From a virus: DNA of 22,567 bases. Below the pieces are notes generated by a model. It was given only the letters and a program-made list of their open reading frames with translations. It was not told the DNA's origin and searched no databases. The translations under genes and the position numbers were made by a program. The DNA lies in the IMG/VR virus record IMGVR_UViG_3300032006_000094, positions 1 through 22,567 of that record; one strand, written 5' to 3'. Shown in pieces: positions 3,532 to 15,181 of the stretch (position 1 is the stretch's first letter; each line of letters starts with the position of its first letter).

Positions 3532-3727
3532 TTAATAGTACCGAGTTGAATAGTTTAACAATGGATTTGATTTTTTCTTCGTTAGGTTTCCTAAACGAAT
3601 AAGTTGTTCTCTCTTTGTCTAGTGCATCAATAATAATATTGATGTCACTACGTTCTAGTTCAAATTTAAATAATTTCACTGGTTCCTCTGTAATAACAAC
3701 AGGCATACGTTTGTACTTTGCTGACAT
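3524..3727 (-). CDS. Small protein, unknown (67 aa)
   Basis: Not recognised. Begins MSAKYKRMPVVITEEPVKLF, has alternating strand and helix character with a helix near 27-41 (SDINIIIDALDKE). The start ATG 3727 is chosen because GGAGGT (3735-3740) lies 7 nt before it and because it overlaps the upstream stop as TAATG; a further in-frame ATG at 3742 would place this Shine-Dalgarno inside the gene. It overlaps the next gene by 8 nt. Confidence 0.75.
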   Translation of the reverse strand: MSAKYKRMPVVITEEPVKLFKFELERSDINIIIDALDKERTTYSFRKPNEEKIKSIVKLFNSVLLND

Positions 3728-3963
3728 TATAACAACCTCCATTCATTCTTCTCGATCATATCACCACAATGCTGACAACCTAATGCTGACCATGCAAAGT
3801 GATAAACTGTCTCTCCACAATTACATTCTGGGCATATTATAAACTTACCATGCTTTCCTGCTCTAGTTCTTGAATTAACATTCTTAGAATGATTAACCCA
3901 ATGTGAATGTGAATTGATAGTTTTATTTAAAACACTATCAGTCCACTCTTGATAAGTTGCCAT
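3727..3963 (-). CDS. Zinc-ribbon-like small protein (78 aa)
   Basis: The C-terminal half has two paired cysteine knuckles, CPEC (Cys44, Cys47) and CQHC (Cys63, Cys66), separated by 15 residues, plus Cys49; this is the layout of a small zinc ribbon. The N-terminus is polar with several His and Asn (SHSHWVNHSKN) and a basic RTRAGKHGK stretch before the ribbon, which could contact nucleic acid. Zinc ribbons of this size occur in phage transcription factors and accessory proteins; target unknown. ATG 3963 follows a sigma-70-like promoter at 3985-4012 by about 15 nt. It is the first gene after the methyltransferase and overlaps the next by one base. Confidence 0.78.
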   Translation of the reverse strand: MATYQEWTDSVLNKTINSHSHWVNHSKNVNSRTRAGKHGKFIICPECNCGETVYHFAWSALGCQHCGDMIEKNEWRLL

Positions 3964-3984: not shown

Positions 3985-4012
3985 ATCATACATCAACAAA
4001 GTGATCTTTCAA
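3985..4012 (-). promoter_or_regulatory. Sigma-70-like promoter on the methyltransferase stop codon
   Basis: TTGAAA (4007-4012), 16 bp spacer, TATGAT (3985-3990) on the minus strand; five of six bases match in each hexamer. The TGA stop of the methyltransferase (3986-3988) is inside the -10 box. The predicted start near 3978 gives a leader of about 15 nt to ATG 3963. Confidence 0.6.
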
Positions 4013-4975
4013 TGAGGAGTGTGACAGTTTATTTTCTGGAACACCATCCTTGATCCTTTGCTTCATTAGTGTACCATAGTCTTCATGTAACTCACAACCT
4101 ATGTAATATCTCTTAAGATTCTTGGCAACCATAGCAGTAGTGCCTGATCCCATAAACGGATCAAGTATAATATCACCCTCTTCTGACCCTGCCTTAATAC
4201 AAGGTTCGATCAACTCAGGTGGATATACTGCGAAATGACTGCCTTTATACGGTTTGCAAGTTACTTTCCATACTGACCTTTTATTTCTCTTATCATAAAC
4301 CATCTTACGAGGTCTTGTGAGTCCTGAGAATTGATTGCCAGTATCCTTAGTGTTATTCATATTGATAGGAGTATTTCCACCCCATCTTTCACCTACTGCT
4401 TTCTCTTTGATCGCTTCGTGATTGTAATAGTATTTCTTATTCTTACTCAATAGAAAGATATACTCATGTGATTTGGTACACCTATCTTTAACTGACTCTG
4501 GCATTGGATTTGGTTTATGCCAAATAATATCTTGTCTTAGATACCAACCATCTGCCCTCAATGCAAATGCTAACATCCAAGGGATACCAATGAGATCCTT
4601 CTCTTTATATCCTTCTAGTTTGTTACCTCTTCTTGCACATTTATCTGGTAGATCTTGTTTAGTCTTTGATACAGATTGTTTAACTAATCCCTGTCCTTTT
4701 CCTGGTCTATAGTTATAATAACTGTCACCAATATTGACCCATAATGTACCATCATCAGATAGCACATTCCTTACTTCTCGGAATACTTTTACTAGGTTTT
4801 GAATATACTCTTCTGGAGATGATTCTTGACCTATTTGGTCACCCTCCCCTCCATAGTCTCTTAGACCATAATAAGGTGGAGAAGTGACGCACATTCTAGG
4901 AGTAACACCAAATTCTTTGATAGTCTCACGACAATCACCAAACAATATGGTATCAGTTAAATCACTTCTGTTCAT
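3986..4975 (-). CDS. Orphan beta-class DNA methyltransferase (N4-cytosine or N6-adenine, 329 aa)
   Basis: Transfers a methyl group from S-adenosylmethionine to an exocyclic amino group of a DNA base. Catalytic motif IV is TSPPY at residues 31-35, and the SAM-binding motif I is DPFMGSGTT at 272-280, followed by the acidic residue in IGCE (292-295). Motif IV before motif I with the target-recognition region between (about 160-240) is the beta-class order. The KDLIGIPW and DIIWHKPNPMPES segments (126-161) are typical of this COG0863-type family. The S rather than D in SPPY favours N4-cytosine but does not prove it; the recognition site cannot be read. No endonuclease gene is adjacent, so it is probably an orphan protecting phage DNA or marking it. 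It overlaps the upstream gene by 14 nt. Confidence 0.93.
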   Translation of the reverse strand: MNRSDLTDTILFGDCRETIKEFGVTPRMCVTSPPYYGLRDYGGEGDQIGQESSPEEYIQNLVKVFREVRNVLSDDGTLWVNIGDSYYNYRPGKGQGLVKQSVSKTKQDLPDKCARRGNKLEGYKEKDLIGIPWMLAFALRADGWYLRQDIIWHKPNPMPESVKDRCTKSHEYIFLLSKNKKYYYNHEAIKEKAVGERWGGNTPINMNNTKDTGNQFSGLTRPRKMVYDKRNKRSVWKVTCKPYKGSHFAVYPPELIEPCIKAGSEEGDIILDPFMGSGTTAMVAKNLKRYYIGCELHEDYGTLMKQRIKDGVPENKLSHSSLKDHFVDV

Positions 4976-8535: not shown

Positions 8536-9150
8536 TTATTGTACCTTAAGAGCCCATCCTGTCAATATGTATTTATCTTGTGTAAAAACTGTATTGCCAC
8601 GATGAACGTGTGTCAAACCAGCAGGAAAGATACACATCATCCCTTGCTCTGGTTTAATTCTTCTCCTTTGATAGAGGAATTCTGTTTCAGCCTCACCATC
8701 AGGCATATCATTTAAGTATATAGTCCACACTAACTCACGTTGTGCAGTTTGATGTGAAGCATTTTCATAATGCCATTCATGGTATCCACCTGAAGGTGGA
8801 GTTTTTTGTCCTTTAACAGTGTATGACATCAACTTCACATTTAATAGTTGACTGTACTGCATACAATAATGTTTAAGACAACACTTCAAGTAACCATTGA
8901 ACTGATCTGTCAGTTGTTGGTCATAATCTTGTAGAAATACTTGATCATCACCTCTTCCCATTCTTCTATTAGGAAACTGCTCGTCTCCATCACCAATGCC
9001 ACTTGTATCAGTGGAATGATTTAATATATTATCAATTTTATCTATGGCATCTTTGCAAAGTTGTTTTGGTACAAAATTTCTCCAGATGCCAATAAAGTCA
9101 TCAAACTCTCCAACCATCTTGTCAATTGGAAAGATAAATTGTTCACTCAT
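8536..9150 (-). CDS. 2-oxoglutarate/Fe(II)-dependent oxygenase (204 aa)
   Basis: Predicted double-stranded beta-helix hydroxylase. The iron ligands are readable as H127-x-E129 in G-G-Y-H-E-W-H-Y-E-N and a distal His183 in HVHRGN (H181 is less typical), with Lys193 in the K-Y-I-L-T-G-W segment as the 2OG-carboxylate ligand. The H-x-E in place of H-x-D is tolerated in the family. The length fits the short form common in T4-like cyanophages. Location inside the tail-fibre operon, 2 nt from the adhesin gene, suggests it could hydroxylate tail-fibre or host proteins, but substrate is unknown. ATG 9150 lacks a strong ribosome site and would depend on coupling with the adhesin gene. Confidence 0.88.
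   Translation of the reverse strand: MSEQFIFPIDKMVGEFDDFIGIWRNFVPKQLCKDAIDKIDNILNHSTDTSGIGDGDEQFPNRRMGRGDDQVFLQDYDQQLTDQFNGYLKCCLKHYCMQYSQLLNVKLMSYTVKGQKTPPSGGYHEWHYENASHQTAQRELVWTIYLNDMPDGEAETEFLYQRRRIKPEQGMMCIFPAGLTHVHRGNTVFTQDKYILTGWALKVQ
8570..8577 (-). promoter_or_regulatory. Candidate late promoter octamer (GATAAATA)
   Basis: GATAAATA on the minus strand fits NATAAATA and lies 36 nt upstream of ATG 8534, near the end of the 2OG oxygenase gene. It would give the tail protein gene its own late start. It sits in coding sequence, so some doubt remains. Confidence 0.5.
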
Positions 9151-9152
9151 AA

Positions 9153-12100
9153 TTAAATCGCTTTTATCAAATATTTTACCCTATGGTATCTAGTAATCAA
9201 CGGAATGTTGTTTTCTGGAGACGCAATAACTGATGTTGTTATTGGAGTCGATGAACTCATTGTGAATTTACCATCACCTGCTAACATACTAGCATCAACT
9301 GGTGAGATTGTTGTATCTACAACATCAATACCACCAATTAAACTACCATCAGCAGGAGTAAAGACTTGATTAGTTTCTTCATCATAGAATAGATGAATAC
9401 CTGCTAATCCATAGTTATCTTCATCCTCATTAGTATTATCATCTTGGCCAGGAGGTCTTGTCTGCCTCAAATATAGATAGATGTCGCCTTGTCTGATGGA
9501 AGCACCTTCTGGTAATGCTATATTATAGAAGTCCCAGTCACTAGAAGTACTGCTTGCAGGAACAATAGTATTTAACAATGTAGTAGTATTACTGCTACCT
9601 GTCTTCCAGAATACCATAAGATCTTCTTCTGGTATAGCCCCTCCATTAGAACCATTACCTCTAATAACTGTGAATCTCAAATTATTTACATTGGTCAAAT
9701 TAAAGGGACCAACATAGTATTCTCTTAAATCATTCTCTGAACTATCTCCAATCCAAGGCAAATATTTTGTCCCAAGTCCACCATATGAAGGAGCACCAGC
9801 ACCAGCAGGAATAGCAAACTTATCACCAGCAGTAGATCCTGGTCCTGGGAGTATTTGTACCATATCATCATTAGTGGATGATTGCCATACATCACCATCA
9901 TATGCTGAACCAGATGGAATACCTGCTGGATCACATAAGAAATATTTACCTGCTGGAACCGAAGGATTACCTGGAGTTGTTCCACCTCCTTCACTACCAG
10001 CATATCTAACTTTTATATAACCATTAGCACCATCTTGTGCGTTACCACCACCGTTACCTGGAGATTGTAGACCAGCAGTTACAGCAATATTTTTTCCTAC
10101 TAATGTTACTGTCACTTGAGAACCCTGTCCACCTCCACCACCATTCAAACCAAACTGTGTTGCAGTTGCAGTAGTAGTAATATTTACATATCCATCTTGA
10201 CCTGGTGCTGAACCATTTGGTGACCATGTTGCAATACAAATATCTGATCTGTATGCAGAATCTCCACGTTGTCCACCGCCTCCACCACCATTACCATTAT
10301 GACCAACACCAGCAGTTCCACCTTCTCCACCAGAGGCATTTCCAGAAGGACCGACACCACCGCCTCCTCCTCCTCCACCACCAGCAGTACATCCACCTTG
10401 GGTTCCAGCATTACCATTAACAAAGTCCATCGCACTTGTCATAGAATGTAAGTTAGTTCCTGCTGCTACACCATCACCACCAGCGTAACAACCATCAGTA
10501 GTTCCACCACCGTTATAACCACCACCTGATCCACCGCCACCGCCTCCACCGCCAGCACCAGCAAATACGTTACCGCCGTTGAAGTAGACACCAGTAGCAC
10601 CACCACCTGCTCCACCAGTAGCACCATTACCCCACGCACCAAGACCAGAAGGACCACCTACAGCAGGTCCGTTACCACCTTGAGCTTCACTACCACCAGA
10701 TTCATTCTCCATTCCAGTACCATTAGCATAACCACCTCGAAGATTGGTTCCCTCTTCTCCTGCTCTACCAATTTGCATTGTGATAGTATTAGGAGTTGAT
10801 CCTAATGTTGCTACAAGTAATGCACCATTAGTTGCTGTTCCACCAATAGCACTACCATCACCAAATGGTGATTGAGTTGCTCCTGCTTCACAACCAGAGT
10901 TAGCATTGGGGTTACCATTACCTCCACCAGCACCAGAAAGTACAAGATTAATAGTTCTACCAGTCTCACCAGTTACTTGTGGTGGGTTACTCCAAGTAGA
11001 ATTAAATGCAGTGAATGTTTGAGTTCCTAAAGGAATTGTACCAGTGAAACCATTTGCTGCACCATCACCACCAGAACTTATTGGTTTAGGAGTTTGTCCA
11101 TTATCTCCTCCACCATTTGTCGAAGTTTGATCTGTACCTTGAGTACCACCAGTGTCTCCATCAAGTCCATTAGTATTCGTGTTGATAACAAACCAATCCT
11201 CACTATCTAATGATGGTGGATATGTAAATGCTCCTCCTGTTCCTCCAGCACCTCCACCAGTACCTGGTGCAACAAATGTAGTTAGTCCACCTGTACAATC
11301 TCCTCTAGAAGTAAATATGGTTGCACCATTATCAGCCCTTGTTGCAACAAATCCAACACCACCAGGATTTTGATCCCAAGTATTTTGTGCAGCAGAATCG
11401 TTTTTAACTTTAACTTTCAACTGATACCAGCCAGTAACTGGTAGATTACTAGCAGGAACAACCAATGTTGCACTACTGGTATAAGGTACACCAGGCCCTG
11501 AAGTATTTGGTGGTGTTGCGTTACCTTGTATGTAAGTACCATTAGGTTGCCAGAGATCCATTTCAGAACTACCATCAGCATGGAATTCAACATTAAAACC
11601 AGCAGCAGCAAGACCTGCATCTACATTGATACCAACACCACATTCCACCCAAGAATTTAAGTTAGGATCTGTTCCAGAAAGAGCTGGAACTGATGGATAA
11701 ATTCCATTGTTTAACAAGAAAGTAGACCATACAGCAGCAGCACCACCAGAGATATTTTGACCACCACTAACATTACCAACAGCGACCCAATCTCTTGTTT
11801 GTAATAATGCTTGTCCACCAATACTTCCTGCGGTTCCACCATCACCACCATTCGCTGTAATAGTATATGTTGTACCATCTACAGTAAATGTAGCGTAAGC
11901 ATATCCTGCATCTCCACCAGAGTTATCACTGTCTCCACCACCTCCACCTGGAGCAAACAAACTTATATCTATTAAGTTTACGTCTCCCTGACCAGCAGGA
12001 ATTGGATTCATTGTAATAGTTCCTGCATTATATGCTTCCTCCATTGCAAACTCAACACCTGTTCCTGGATTAACTATAACTGTTGCTTTACCACCTACTA

Positions 12101-13862
12101 TTGTCTGGTTATTAATAGCATAATATCTTGGTTGTGGAATAGAAGTAACATCATCAAATGTTCCAGATGCTAATTTAACTATTGGATTACCACCAGCAGG
12201 AGATACACCAGGAGGATTTGGTTGTGAATCTGATGTTGGATCATACTCAAATCCTTGAGTAGATAAACCAGAAGTTAATACTAGGAATGATCCATTATAT
12301 TCGATTGGAGTTGCACCTTGAATAGTAACCCAATCATTAGGAGAATAACCATGAGGTTCTGCTGTTGCAACAATACACTTATCATTAGGAGCATCATAAG
12401 TGATACTTGTTATATTAATAGTTGGAGCTGATGTGACATTCCATTTCTTTGGATTACCACCATCATCTAAACCAATGCCCTCAACATTACCGTAAGTTGC
12501 CATCTTACCATCATTTAATGCAGCAGCAGATAATCCATGAGAGTGACCCAATGCTACTCCACCACCTCCATTTGGTTCAAATGGTATAACATTTGCTCTT
12601 GTTTTAGAGTAAGTCACACCGTACTTATCAGAAGGTGATCCACCAAATTCAACAGCCAATGCCTCATCTGGTTCAGATGATAGTATATTATGAAAATGTT
12701 CTATTGGTCTTGAAAATATATGATCTTCAATTGGACCAAGAGTTGTTGAAACACTTCCAGTAATGTATGTAGATATATCTGCTTGAATACCAGTATAACC
12801 AGTTGTCTTAACGTTACCTATATCAAAAAATAATCCACCATTTAATAACTGGTTCTGTGCAATATACCAAGTACCACCAATCTGTCCAACTGTATTGTTT
12901 AAAGCATCTTCTATTGTAGCAGATCCTAAACCGTCTACTGAACCAAAACCTGCGACTATTTTTTCTCTATAATCTGGTAAGAAGAACGTTCCTATATTAA
13001 GTGGAAAATCTCTGAAAGTAAAACTCTTATATACCTGAATATTAGGATGAACAGTACCACCACCAGTGAAGTTAACCGTAGCTTGTGGTAATGTGGAAGG
13101 ATCTACTCCATCAGGAAATACTACCTCATAACAGAACTCATTAACAGGAACCTGTGCTGTAACAACTTCTGTTGGCTCTTTAGTTTGATAATAATTATTA
13201 AATTCAAATACACCTGGTCCTATTGATCCAAATCCTATGCCAATACCAAACTGAGCACCGACCTGAGAACCAGATCCACCAAAACTATTACTTAGACTAA
13301 CACTAAGTCCTACTGGATCCTTACTTAATACAGTAGTATTAACTGGAAGTGTTACTGTACCATTATTTCCCATCAATTCTACTACATCACCAACATTAAT
13401 CTTATTAATATCTGTTGATGGTATAGTAGTTATATCTGGTGAACCAGCAGAAATATTACCAGTAAATTGCGTTGTTTGTCCTATAATTCTTACAGATGCA
13501 CCATAAGGATATGGCATCTTGATTGAAGGAGTTACATTAGGATCTCTATAAAAATTTAAAAATGCTTTATCATTGATCCAAAATAATCTTCTTAATCCAC
13601 CAGGAGATGTTGGTTGTAATGGAGTATAACTTGTGTTACCACCGTAAGTATTACGAACTGCTTTGTATAATATAGGATAATCTCTAATATTTAATTCTCT
13701 TCCATCACAATAAAGATATCCTTCATGTGAATACTCTTCTATCTCATTCGCTGCACCAGAATTTACATCAACAAGAACAGGCAATATAGTGCCAGGTGGT
13801 TGATGTTGACCTCCCTTATCTTGGTAATAATTCTGAAATTTATCGCGATATGTAACGGTCAT
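9153..13862 (-). CDS. Giant Tail Collar plus glycine-rich adhesin-like tail protein (1569 aa)
   Basis: Probable receptor-binding or tail-tip fibre protein. The N-terminus is a Tail Collar domain: GTILPVL (24-30), then CDGRELNIRDYP (52-63) and NTYGG (71-75), with the LPDYREKIVAGFG segment (about 294-306). H-x-H pairs occur at 389/391 and 440/442, similar to metal-coordinating motifs in T4-like fibre tips. Then come beta-rich regions and glycine-rich blocks near 640-700, 865-900 and 975-1290. The last includes runs of up to nine Gly and resembles glycine-rich tail proteins whose strands pack as polyglycine-II bundles in T4-like adhesins. The final ~280 residues are beta-rich, without poly-Gly. 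It overlaps the upstream gene by one base (TAATG) and is followed 2 nt later by the 2OG oxygenase. Unusually long for this class. Confidence 0.88.
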   Translation of the reverse strand: MTVTYRDKFQNYYQDKGGQHQPPGTILPVLVDVNSGAANEIEEYSHEGYLYCDGRELNIRDYPILYKAVRNTYGGNTSYTPLQPTSPGGLRRLFWINDKAFLNFYRDPNVTPSIKMPYPYGASVRIIGQTTQFTGNISAGSPDITTIPSTDINKINVGDVVELMGNNGTVTLPVNTTVLSKDPVGLSVSLSNSFGGSGSQVGAQFGIGIGFGSIGPGVFEFNNYYQTKEPTEVVTAQVPVNEFCYEVVFPDGVDPSTLPQATVNFTGGGTVHPNIQVYKSFTFRDFPLNIGTFFLPDYREKIVAGFGSVDGLGSATIEDALNNTVGQIGGTWYIAQNQLLNGGLFFDIGNVKTTGYTGIQADISTYITGSVSTTLGPIEDHIFSRPIEHFHNILSSEPDEALAVEFGGSPSDKYGVTYSKTRANVIPFEPNGGGGVALGHSHGLSAAALNDGKMATYGNVEGIGLDDGGNPKKWNVTSAPTINITSITYDAPNDKCIVATAEPHGYSPNDWVTIQGATPIEYNGSFLVLTSGLSTQGFEYDPTSDSQPNPPGVSPAGGNPIVKLASGTFDDVTSIPQPRYYAINNQTIVGGKATVIVNPGTGVEFAMEEAYNAGTITMNPIPAGQGDVNLIDISLFAPGGGGGDSDNSGGDAGYAYATFTVDGTTYTITANGGDGGTAGSIGGQALLQTRDWVAVGNVSGGQNISGGAAAVWSTFLLNNGIYPSVPALSGTDPNLNSWVECGVGINVDAGLAAAGFNVEFHADGSSEMDLWQPNGTYIQGNATPPNTSGPGVPYTSSATLVVPASNLPVTGWYQLKVKVKNDSAAQNTWDQNPGGVGFVATRADNGATIFTSRGDCTGGLTTFVAPGTGGGAGGTGGAFTYPPSLDSEDWFVINTNTNGLDGDTGGTQGTDQTSTNGGGDNGQTPKPISSGGDGAANGFTGTIPLGTQTFTAFNSTWSNPPQVTGETGRTINLVLSGAGGGNGNPNANSGCEAGATQSPFGDGSAIGGTATNGALLVATLGSTPNTITMQIGRAGEEGTNLRGGYANGTGMENESGGSEAQGGNGPAVGGPSGLGAWGNGATGGAGGGATGVYFNGGNVFAGAGGGGGGGGSGGGYNGGGTTDGCYAGGDGVAAGTNLHSMTSAMDFVNGNAGTQGGCTAGGGGGGGGGVGPSGNASGGEGGTAGVGHNGNGGGGGGQRGDSAYRSDICIATWSPNGSAPGQDGYVNITTTATATQFGLNGGGGGQGSQVTVTLVGKNIAVTAGLQSPGNGGGNAQDGANGYIKVRYAGSEGGGTTPGNPSVPAGKYFLCDPAGIPSGSAYDGDVWQSSTNDDMVQILPGPGSTAGDKFAIPAGAGAPSYGGLGTKYLPWIGDSSENDLREYYVGPFNLTNVNNLRFTVIRGNGSNGGAIPEEDLMVFWKTGSSNTTTLLNTIVPASSTSSDWDFYNIALPEGASIRQGDIYLYLRQTRPPGQDDNTNEDEDNYGLAGIHLFYDEETNQVFTPADGSLIGGIDVVDTTISPVDASMLAGDGKFTMSSSTPITTSVIASPENNIPLITRYHRVKYLIKAI

Positions 13863-15181
13863 TAATATTTAATTAGAAATTCTTGGACGATATAAGGTTG
13901 AACAAATGAATCTGCTTTGTTCTCAGAATTAACAGCAATACTAATAGTTGATTTCACATCAATAGCAGGTATAAATGATGGATTTGTATTCACAACATAT
14001 GTATGATTGGTAGCACTGAAATTAACAAAATGTCTGTGTGATCCATCATTACCAGTAGCCTCAGTTTGAGTAACCGTGTTATTAATAGCACCATAATAAT
14101 CATTAGTTGTACTATCAGCAAATGAATCATAAGGTACGTTCAAATCTGTATAGTTAGGAGCTAAAGTTACAGGACCAGTTACTGGGTTAGCAAGGAAACC
14201 ACCTAACCAACAACCTGGCCAACCTATTCCTTCACATTTTACAGCCATAGTTCCTGTGTATGTAATAGTACCGTAGGTATATGATTCTGTAGAACCAGAA
14301 CTACCACCACAACCTGCATTCTGTCCACTCCAAACTGGCCACTGTCCAGCATATCCTGTTGGTATCAGACATTGGTTAGAAGCTAAAAATTCACAACCAC
14401 TAAAACATGCATTGTAATATGTTTTTCTACAACCACCAGCAGATTGTGATTGTACAACACTACTCGCTGCAATTTGTTGTCTAGTTGCATTCAAATAACA
14501 TAATTCTTGTCTAGTATTTTCTGACCATTCTTGAATACACAGTGTAGATTTCCTAGTGTATGAGTTTTTAGCAAACATTGCAAACTCATTACCAACAGCA
14601 GATGCTACTCTAGTTCTAGTTCCATCATGGAAGTGAGCATGTGGCATGATTGCAGTTTGCAATACATCTATGGTTTCTGTATAGTTACCAGTAGTTCTAG
14701 TAAAACCTGGTTGACCAGTTATTTCTATCTGTTGTCCTGGTAAGAAGAAGTTACCTTGATATAATATTTCATAAGATGTTCCTATATTACTCTGAACATC
14801 TAATCCTACACCAGATTTAACAATAGTATTTGGTGGATCATTATCATCCTCAAGATAAAGATCAATATAATCCCCTAAATTAGCACCACTAGATGCTCTA
14901 ATCTTCTTAGATCCTAGATCTGGTAATTGAAACTGATTATCTAATAATGTTTGAGTTGGTTTTCTATATCTAGATAATTGTCCAACTCCTAATATCTCTG
15001 CTAATTCTGGAAATATTTCAGCAGAATATATCCCACCATCACATCTTAAATATCCAGCAGGTAATTCATCTTGAGTATTCTGATCATCTGGATCATTTGA
15101 TGTTAATTGCTTTGACCAATTTAAGATTGTACCTGTACTAGTACCTATCTTTGATTTTTCTCTTTGATAGAATACTGCCAT
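13862..15181 (-). CDS. Tail Collar protein with cysteine-rich insert (439 aa)
   Basis: Tail-fibre-like protein with a Tail Collar signature: GTILNW (17-22), AGYLRCDGG (42-50), IFPELAEILG, and LPDLGSKKIRASSGA (86-100). H-x-H motifs lie at 181-185 (MPHAHFH) and 382/384 (SHRHF), with smaller histidine sites after. Unusually, nine cysteines fall between residues 215 and 324 (215, 228, 251, 259, 263, 271, 291, 316, 324), suggesting a disulfide- or metal-stabilised insert. The C-terminus (IVQEFLIKY) resembles the ends of the neighbouring collar proteins. ATG 15181 is coupled by TAATG with a GAGGG ribosome site; its stop forms TAATG with the giant adhesin gene. A paralogue of its two neighbours, probably all fibre/baseplate parts of one organelle. 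Confidence 0.85.
   Translation of the reverse strand: MAVFYQREKSKIGTSTGTILNWSKQLTSNDPDDQNTQDELPAGYLRCDGGIYSAEIFPELAEILGVGQLSRYRKPTQTLLDNQFQLPDLGSKKIRASSGANLGDYIDLYLEDDNDPPNTIVKSGVGLDVQSNIGTSYEILYQGNFFLPGQQIEITGQPGFTRTTGNYTETIDVLQTAIMPHAHFHDGTRTRVASAVGNEFAMFAKNSYTRKSTLCIQEWSENTRQELCYLNATRQQIAASSVVQSQSAGGCRKTYYNACFSGCEFLASNQCLIPTGYAGQWPVWSGQNAGCGGSSGSTESYTYGTITYTGTMAVKCEGIGWPGCWLGGFLANPVTGPVTLAPNYTDLNVPYDSFADSTTNDYYGAINNTVTQTEATGNDGSHRHFVNFSATNHTYVVNTNPSFIPAIDVKSTISIAVNSENKADSFVQPYIVQEFLIKY

Follow-up and report, generated by a model that had tools for sequence, protein, structure and literature searches.

A cysteine-rich insert as the candidate receptor-binding head of a tail-collar protein in a marine T4-like cyanophage

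The cytoplasm in which phages assemble is reducing, and the question raised here is what nine cysteines are doing in a single segment of a phage tail protein. The protein, of 439 residues, is encoded on the minus strand (positions 13,862–15,181) of a 22.6-kb virus record, IMGVR_UViG_3300032006_000094, whose 22,567 nucleotides are the window that we analyzed. An initial annotation, made from the letters alone, had listed nine cysteines between residues 215 and 324, described the neighboring tail proteins as cysteine-poor, and offered three explanations: a metal cluster, a disulfide-stabilized receptor-binding insert, or a late-acquired domain. The list of cysteines is exact: the protein has them at positions 47, 215, 228, 251, 259, 263, 271, 291, 316, and 324, and the codons of the nine in the insert lie within 14,210–14,539. 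The description of the neighbors also holds, since cysteine accounts for 2.28% of the 439-residue protein versus 0.26%, 0.47%, and 0.64% of the neighboring tail proteins of 1893, 425, and 1569 residues. For one fixed stretch of 110 residues, the probability of finding at least nine cysteines is 1.8e-7 (background 49 of 6506 residues in the other 23 ORFs tested in the window), and it stays small once scanning is allowed for. The main features of the protein are as follows:

13,862–15,181, minus strand: tail-collar/virion structural protein of 439 residues, orthologue of T4-like GC 736, matched by phrog_31602
14,987–15,064, minus strand: core of the phage tail collar domain, residues 40–65, with the invariant C47 (PF07484 below cut-off; phrog_4714)
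14,138–14,563, minus strand: putative cysteine-rich tip domain, residues 207–348, about 142 residues with nine cysteines, delimited by alignments and predicted by AlphaFold2 to fold separately
14,537–14,539, minus strand: C215, left over without an evident partner and missing from the S-RSM4 and S-WAM2 groups

Judged by profile matches and gene order, the protein is a cyanomyophage tail-collar protein (T4-like GC 736, phrog_31602), as the initial annotation had surmised in calling it a phage tail protein. The virion structural protein family phrog_31602 matches it end to end (E 6.3e-70; residues 1–439 of 439, profile positions 1–472), and the tail collar family phrog_4714 matches it with an E-value of 1.7e-41. 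The Pfam tail collar domain PF07484 scores 20 bits (E 7e-4), below the gathering cut-off of 24 bits, and exceeds the cut-off in the collar proteins that flank the protein on both sides (39.3 and 35.6 bits). The gene lies between a gp12-like short tail fiber gene and the next large fiber gene, in the same order as in S-RSM4, S-PM2, and Syn1, and the window has the gene content of a T4-like cyanophage (heme oxygenase, 2OG-Fe(II) oxygenase, tail assembly chaperone, and collar/short-tail-fiber proteins). Cultured relatives of the protein belong to Synechococcus and Prochlorococcus phages. The S-PM2 orthologue is annotated as a virion structural protein, and some structural proteomics exists for cyanophages (PMC3037559).

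Three other genes in the window deserve mention. The collar-containing neighbor of 1569 residues (9153–13,862, minus strand) has 10 cysteines spread along its length and long glycine-rich runs (GGAGGGGGGG...), reminiscent of polyglycine adhesins such as gp38 of phage S16. Directly after the fiber genes, as in S-RSM4, S-H9-1, and ACG-2014h, lies the 2OG-Fe(II) oxygenase gene (8536–9150, minus strand), whose product might modify a virion protein. An ORF of 78 residues (3727–3963, minus strand) with the pattern CPECNC...CQHC, adjoining a DNA methyltransferase-like ORF (3986–4975), likely encodes a small zinc ribbon.

To speak of an insert implies relatives that lack it, and these exist. At the same locus, 10 isolates (S-PM2, Syn1, S-CAM3, ACG-2014e, ACG-2014h, ACG-2014i, S-H9-1, and three Sf phages) encode orthologues of 287–301 residues without the insert, several of which are named T4-like GC 736. 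Collar, stem, two HxH motifs, and C terminus are common to both forms, and the main difference is a stretch of about 140 residues between the HxH motifs. The GC 736 proteins S-PM2p220, Syn1_034, and S-MbCM7_028 resemble the window protein in gene order, collar, both motifs, and C-terminal segment but have only one to three cysteines and no cysteine-rich insert. In two full-length relatives, SRSM4_212 of S-RSM4 (about 31% identity) and P29B0810_029 of S-WAM2 (about 29%), an insert occurs at the same point. The N-terminal half of the S-RSM4 insert, including cysteines 228, 259, 263, and 271, is shared with that of the window (hhalign, 92%, E 6e-7), whereas C215 is absent from both relatives, their domains hold six and four cysteines, respectively, and the second half was left unaligned by hhalign. 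Comparison of the window group with the S-RSM4 group by HMMs gave E-values of about 1e-6 to 1e-5 for the first half; the match to S-WAM2 was weak. Because its first half is homologous to that of S-RSM4, and weakly to that of S-WAM2, the insert is old within these phages, and we rejected a late gain in the lineage of the window. The late-acquired domain of the initial annotation is only partly right.

Conservation was assessed in 120 nonredundant close relatives from IMG/VR, collected with related queries. Cysteines 228, 259, 263, and 271 are present in all of them, and C215 is present in 118. The insert has 11 cysteines in 107 relatives, nine in nine, 13 in two, and 12 in two. The cysteines are thus kept, whereas the other residues of the insert have a mean pairwise identity of 41%, compared with 67–73% for most of the stem and 51% for residues 349–380. 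In the two main clades, four of the eleven cysteines are differently placed (251, 279, 291, and 316 versus 248, 275, 314, and 331), and the total is still eleven. Neither the 11- nor the 9-cysteine form occurs in any isolate of the phage collection, tblastn with the window-type domain gave no match in phage records, a scan of genome contigs found no relative, and no description of the cysteine-rich domain was found in the literature searched.

Several of the less conserved cysteines change two at a time, and the sites concerned in the window are the following:

14,345–14,347, minus strand: G279, where the clade of the window has lost a cysteine, putative partner of 303; both sites lack cysteine in the same six sequences
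14,273–14,275, minus strand: Y303, site of the second cysteine lost in the clade of the window, in the same six sequences as 279
14,309–14,311, minus strand: C291, putative partner of C316, lost together with it in relatives L008 and L009 and replaced by 288 and 331
14,234–14,236, minus strand: C316, putative partner of C291, with paired loss and swap in L008 and L009

Neither 279 nor 303 is a cysteine in the window and the five distinct relatives nearest to it; every other close relative keeps C303. Cysteines 314 and 331 are both missing from relatives L266, L277, and L281 although the remainder of their clade has them, and L008 and L009 have lost 291 and 316 and gained 288 and 331. Each of these three groups is a single clade in a tree from which the insert was left out, with stem branches of 0.49% (window clade), 0.27% (L266/L277/L281), and 0.40% (L008/L009) of the total tree length. 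Because these branches are so short, two independent single changes on one of them are unlikely. By comparison, C70, outside the insert, underwent about six single changes; a C70–C380 disulfide was rejected, as C70 changes without C380. In the domain alignment, the S-RSM4- and S-WAM2-type inserts lack C215 and have six, eight, or four cysteines, all even numbers; among the larger S-RSM4-type relatives, which have an additional domain, not every total is even.

Conserved cysteines that are lost or swapped in pairs, here in three events, are what a disulfide-rich domain would be expected to show, and we infer disulfides. The best-supported pairs would be 279–303 and 291–316 (or 314–331). Covariation assigns no partners to the invariant cysteines, and the paired changes point to none for 228, 251, 259, 263, 271, and 324; with an odd total, C215 would be the odd one out. 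Relatives L032 and L033, and also L039 and L040, have gained a C204 near C215 (or C217), for which it could be a partner. Many S-RSM4-type relatives (among L122–L201) have about 140 further residues after the cysteine domain, and in one S-RSM4-type clade a cysteine near 314 and another near 480 (own numbering) co-occur, which may reflect a further disulfide.

The structure of the protein was predicted as a monomer with AlphaFold2. In the full-length model, pLDDT was below 50 for residues 90–217 and 348–439 and good in most of 222–345; a fold search with this model was uninformative because the stem was poorly predicted. Modeled alone from 86 sequences, the domain reached a pLDDT of 85.1 and a pTM of 0.73, with one helix followed by strands, and these predictions point with confidence to a separately folding domain. 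Searches with the domain model gave no significant match by Foldseek in the PDB (best E 0.94), no match in BFVD (best E 0.19), and no Z-score of 2 or more with VIA-align. Possibly, the predicted structure is a new fold, of which a missing match is no proof. A Pfam scan with the insert alone stayed at chance level, with the Furin-like cysteine-rich region as the best hit (E 0.05, in one of 86 sequences); on the whole protein, this family (PF00757) scored 15.3 bits against a cut-off of 26.8, which is not significant. Profiles of the insert alone found nothing significant among PDB sequences, and neither did tblastn in phage records, whereas PHROGs returned phrog_31602 only.

The position of the insert in the chain is marked by two histidine motifs:

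14,627–14,641, minus strand: first histidine motif, HAHFH, residues 181–185, in the stem before the insert; H181, H183, and H185 invariant, HxH aligned in insert-less orthologues
14,030–14,038, minus strand: second histidine motif, HRH, residues 382–384, in the stem after the insert; H382 and H384 invariant, HxH aligned in insert-less orthologues

Both are invariant in 30 aligned sequences. Each chain of T4 gp12 contributes His445 and His447 to a metal site on the threefold axis (PMC3004832), and the tip of gp37 holds seven irons with HxH motifs, which have been noted in cyanophages too (PMC11705849). The receptor-binding ends of these T4 proteins follow the same path as the window protein, from a collar through an HxH stem to a head and a return strand, with HxH metal sites on the axis (PMC11705849, PMC3004832). 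The cysteine-rich head, in contrast, could be matched to them neither by sequence nor by fold. By analogy with gp12- and gp37-type fibers, which bind Zn or Fe at this place, the motifs flanking the insert are probably trimer-axis metal sites and, because these invariant motifs lie on either side of it, the insert is most likely a head at the end of the stem, arranged as in a gp37- or gp12-like tip.

This head evolves faster than the stem that would carry it. Median dN/dS is 0.43 in the head versus 0.17 in the stem, and the length of the insert ranges from 139 to 229 residues versus 263–297 for the rest of the protein. Receptor-binding tips look like this, variable at the head and fixed in the stem, which suggests binding; relaxed constraint could also account for the faster evolution.

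Taken together, we consider it on balance probable that the insert forms the distal, receptor-binding head of a trimeric tail-collar fiber protein, a head that diversifies on a disulfide scaffold. The chain would run from the collar along a stem with the first HxH metal site into a globular head of about 142 residues before returning past the second HxH motif toward the collar end, which is the arrangement of the gp37 tip. Intramolecular disulfides, four here and five in most relatives, with C215 unpaired, would hold the head and allow its surface and loops to change fast while the fold is kept. The head would most likely touch the host surface and take part in host recognition, although the GC 736 protein might instead belong to the inner baseplate or the collar, in which case its tip would not reach the host. 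Of the three options in the initial annotation, the disulfide-stabilized receptor-binding insert is the best supported, by the paired loss and swapping of cysteines, the separate domain, and the variable tip; bonding and binding themselves are inferred.

A smaller but real possibility is that the module is disulfide-stabilized and yet purely structural or decorative, serving stability in seawater or contacts between fibers but not receptor binding. In many related cyanophages this locus lacks the insert, and the tail of the contractile Agrobacterium phage Milano is stabilized by disulfides (PMC10811340). In Milano, cysteine-rich structural proteins (2.1%), including short tail fibers, have proven disulfides, mainly between subunits of tube, sheath, and baseplate, whereas the bonds suggested here would lie within one tip domain (PMC10811340). 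That fast evolution and length change are concentrated at the tip is more in keeping with a surface turned toward the host than with a conserved structural contact.

If the cysteines are not bonded to one another, they could be metal ligands of a zinc or Fe–S domain, which could fold in the reducing cytoplasm, and C215, being unpaired, could occupy the trimer axis; the HxH motifs of the stem are of the metal-binding kind of gp12 and gp37. We regard this as improbable: inspection of the sequence of the window's insert revealed neither a CxxC knuckle nor a histidine, cysteines are lost in twos rather than fours, partners are swapped, and no domain scored above chance in the Pfam scan. The metal cluster thus finds no support in the insert. 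Still less probable is that most of the cysteines are buried free thiols whose paired losses coincide through shared ancestry. There are only three independent paired events, too few for sign tests on independent pairs to reach significance; however, both changes of each event fall on one branch of less than 0.5% of the tree length, and the count stays at 11 in two clades that place four cysteines differently.

Under the receptor-binding head that we favor, the disulfides would most likely close on or after exit of the particle from the reducing cytoplasm. In a more speculative version, which we consider rather unlikely, the tip has a new fold and represents a family of disulfide-scaffolded, fast-diversifying adhesin heads of ocean cyanophages, reduced during assembly and locked by oxidation upon release into oxygenated seawater. 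If so, host recognition would include a maturation step carried out by the disulfides. Marine T4-like cyanophages are abundant, yet their receptor-binding proteins are poorly known. The present analysis names a specific candidate tip module, which combines a conserved putative disulfide frame with a variable surface and lies at a set point of one gene. Such disulfides would be an unusual device for a virus that is put together under the reducing conditions of the cytoplasm, and the module would lend itself directly to adsorption and structural studies.
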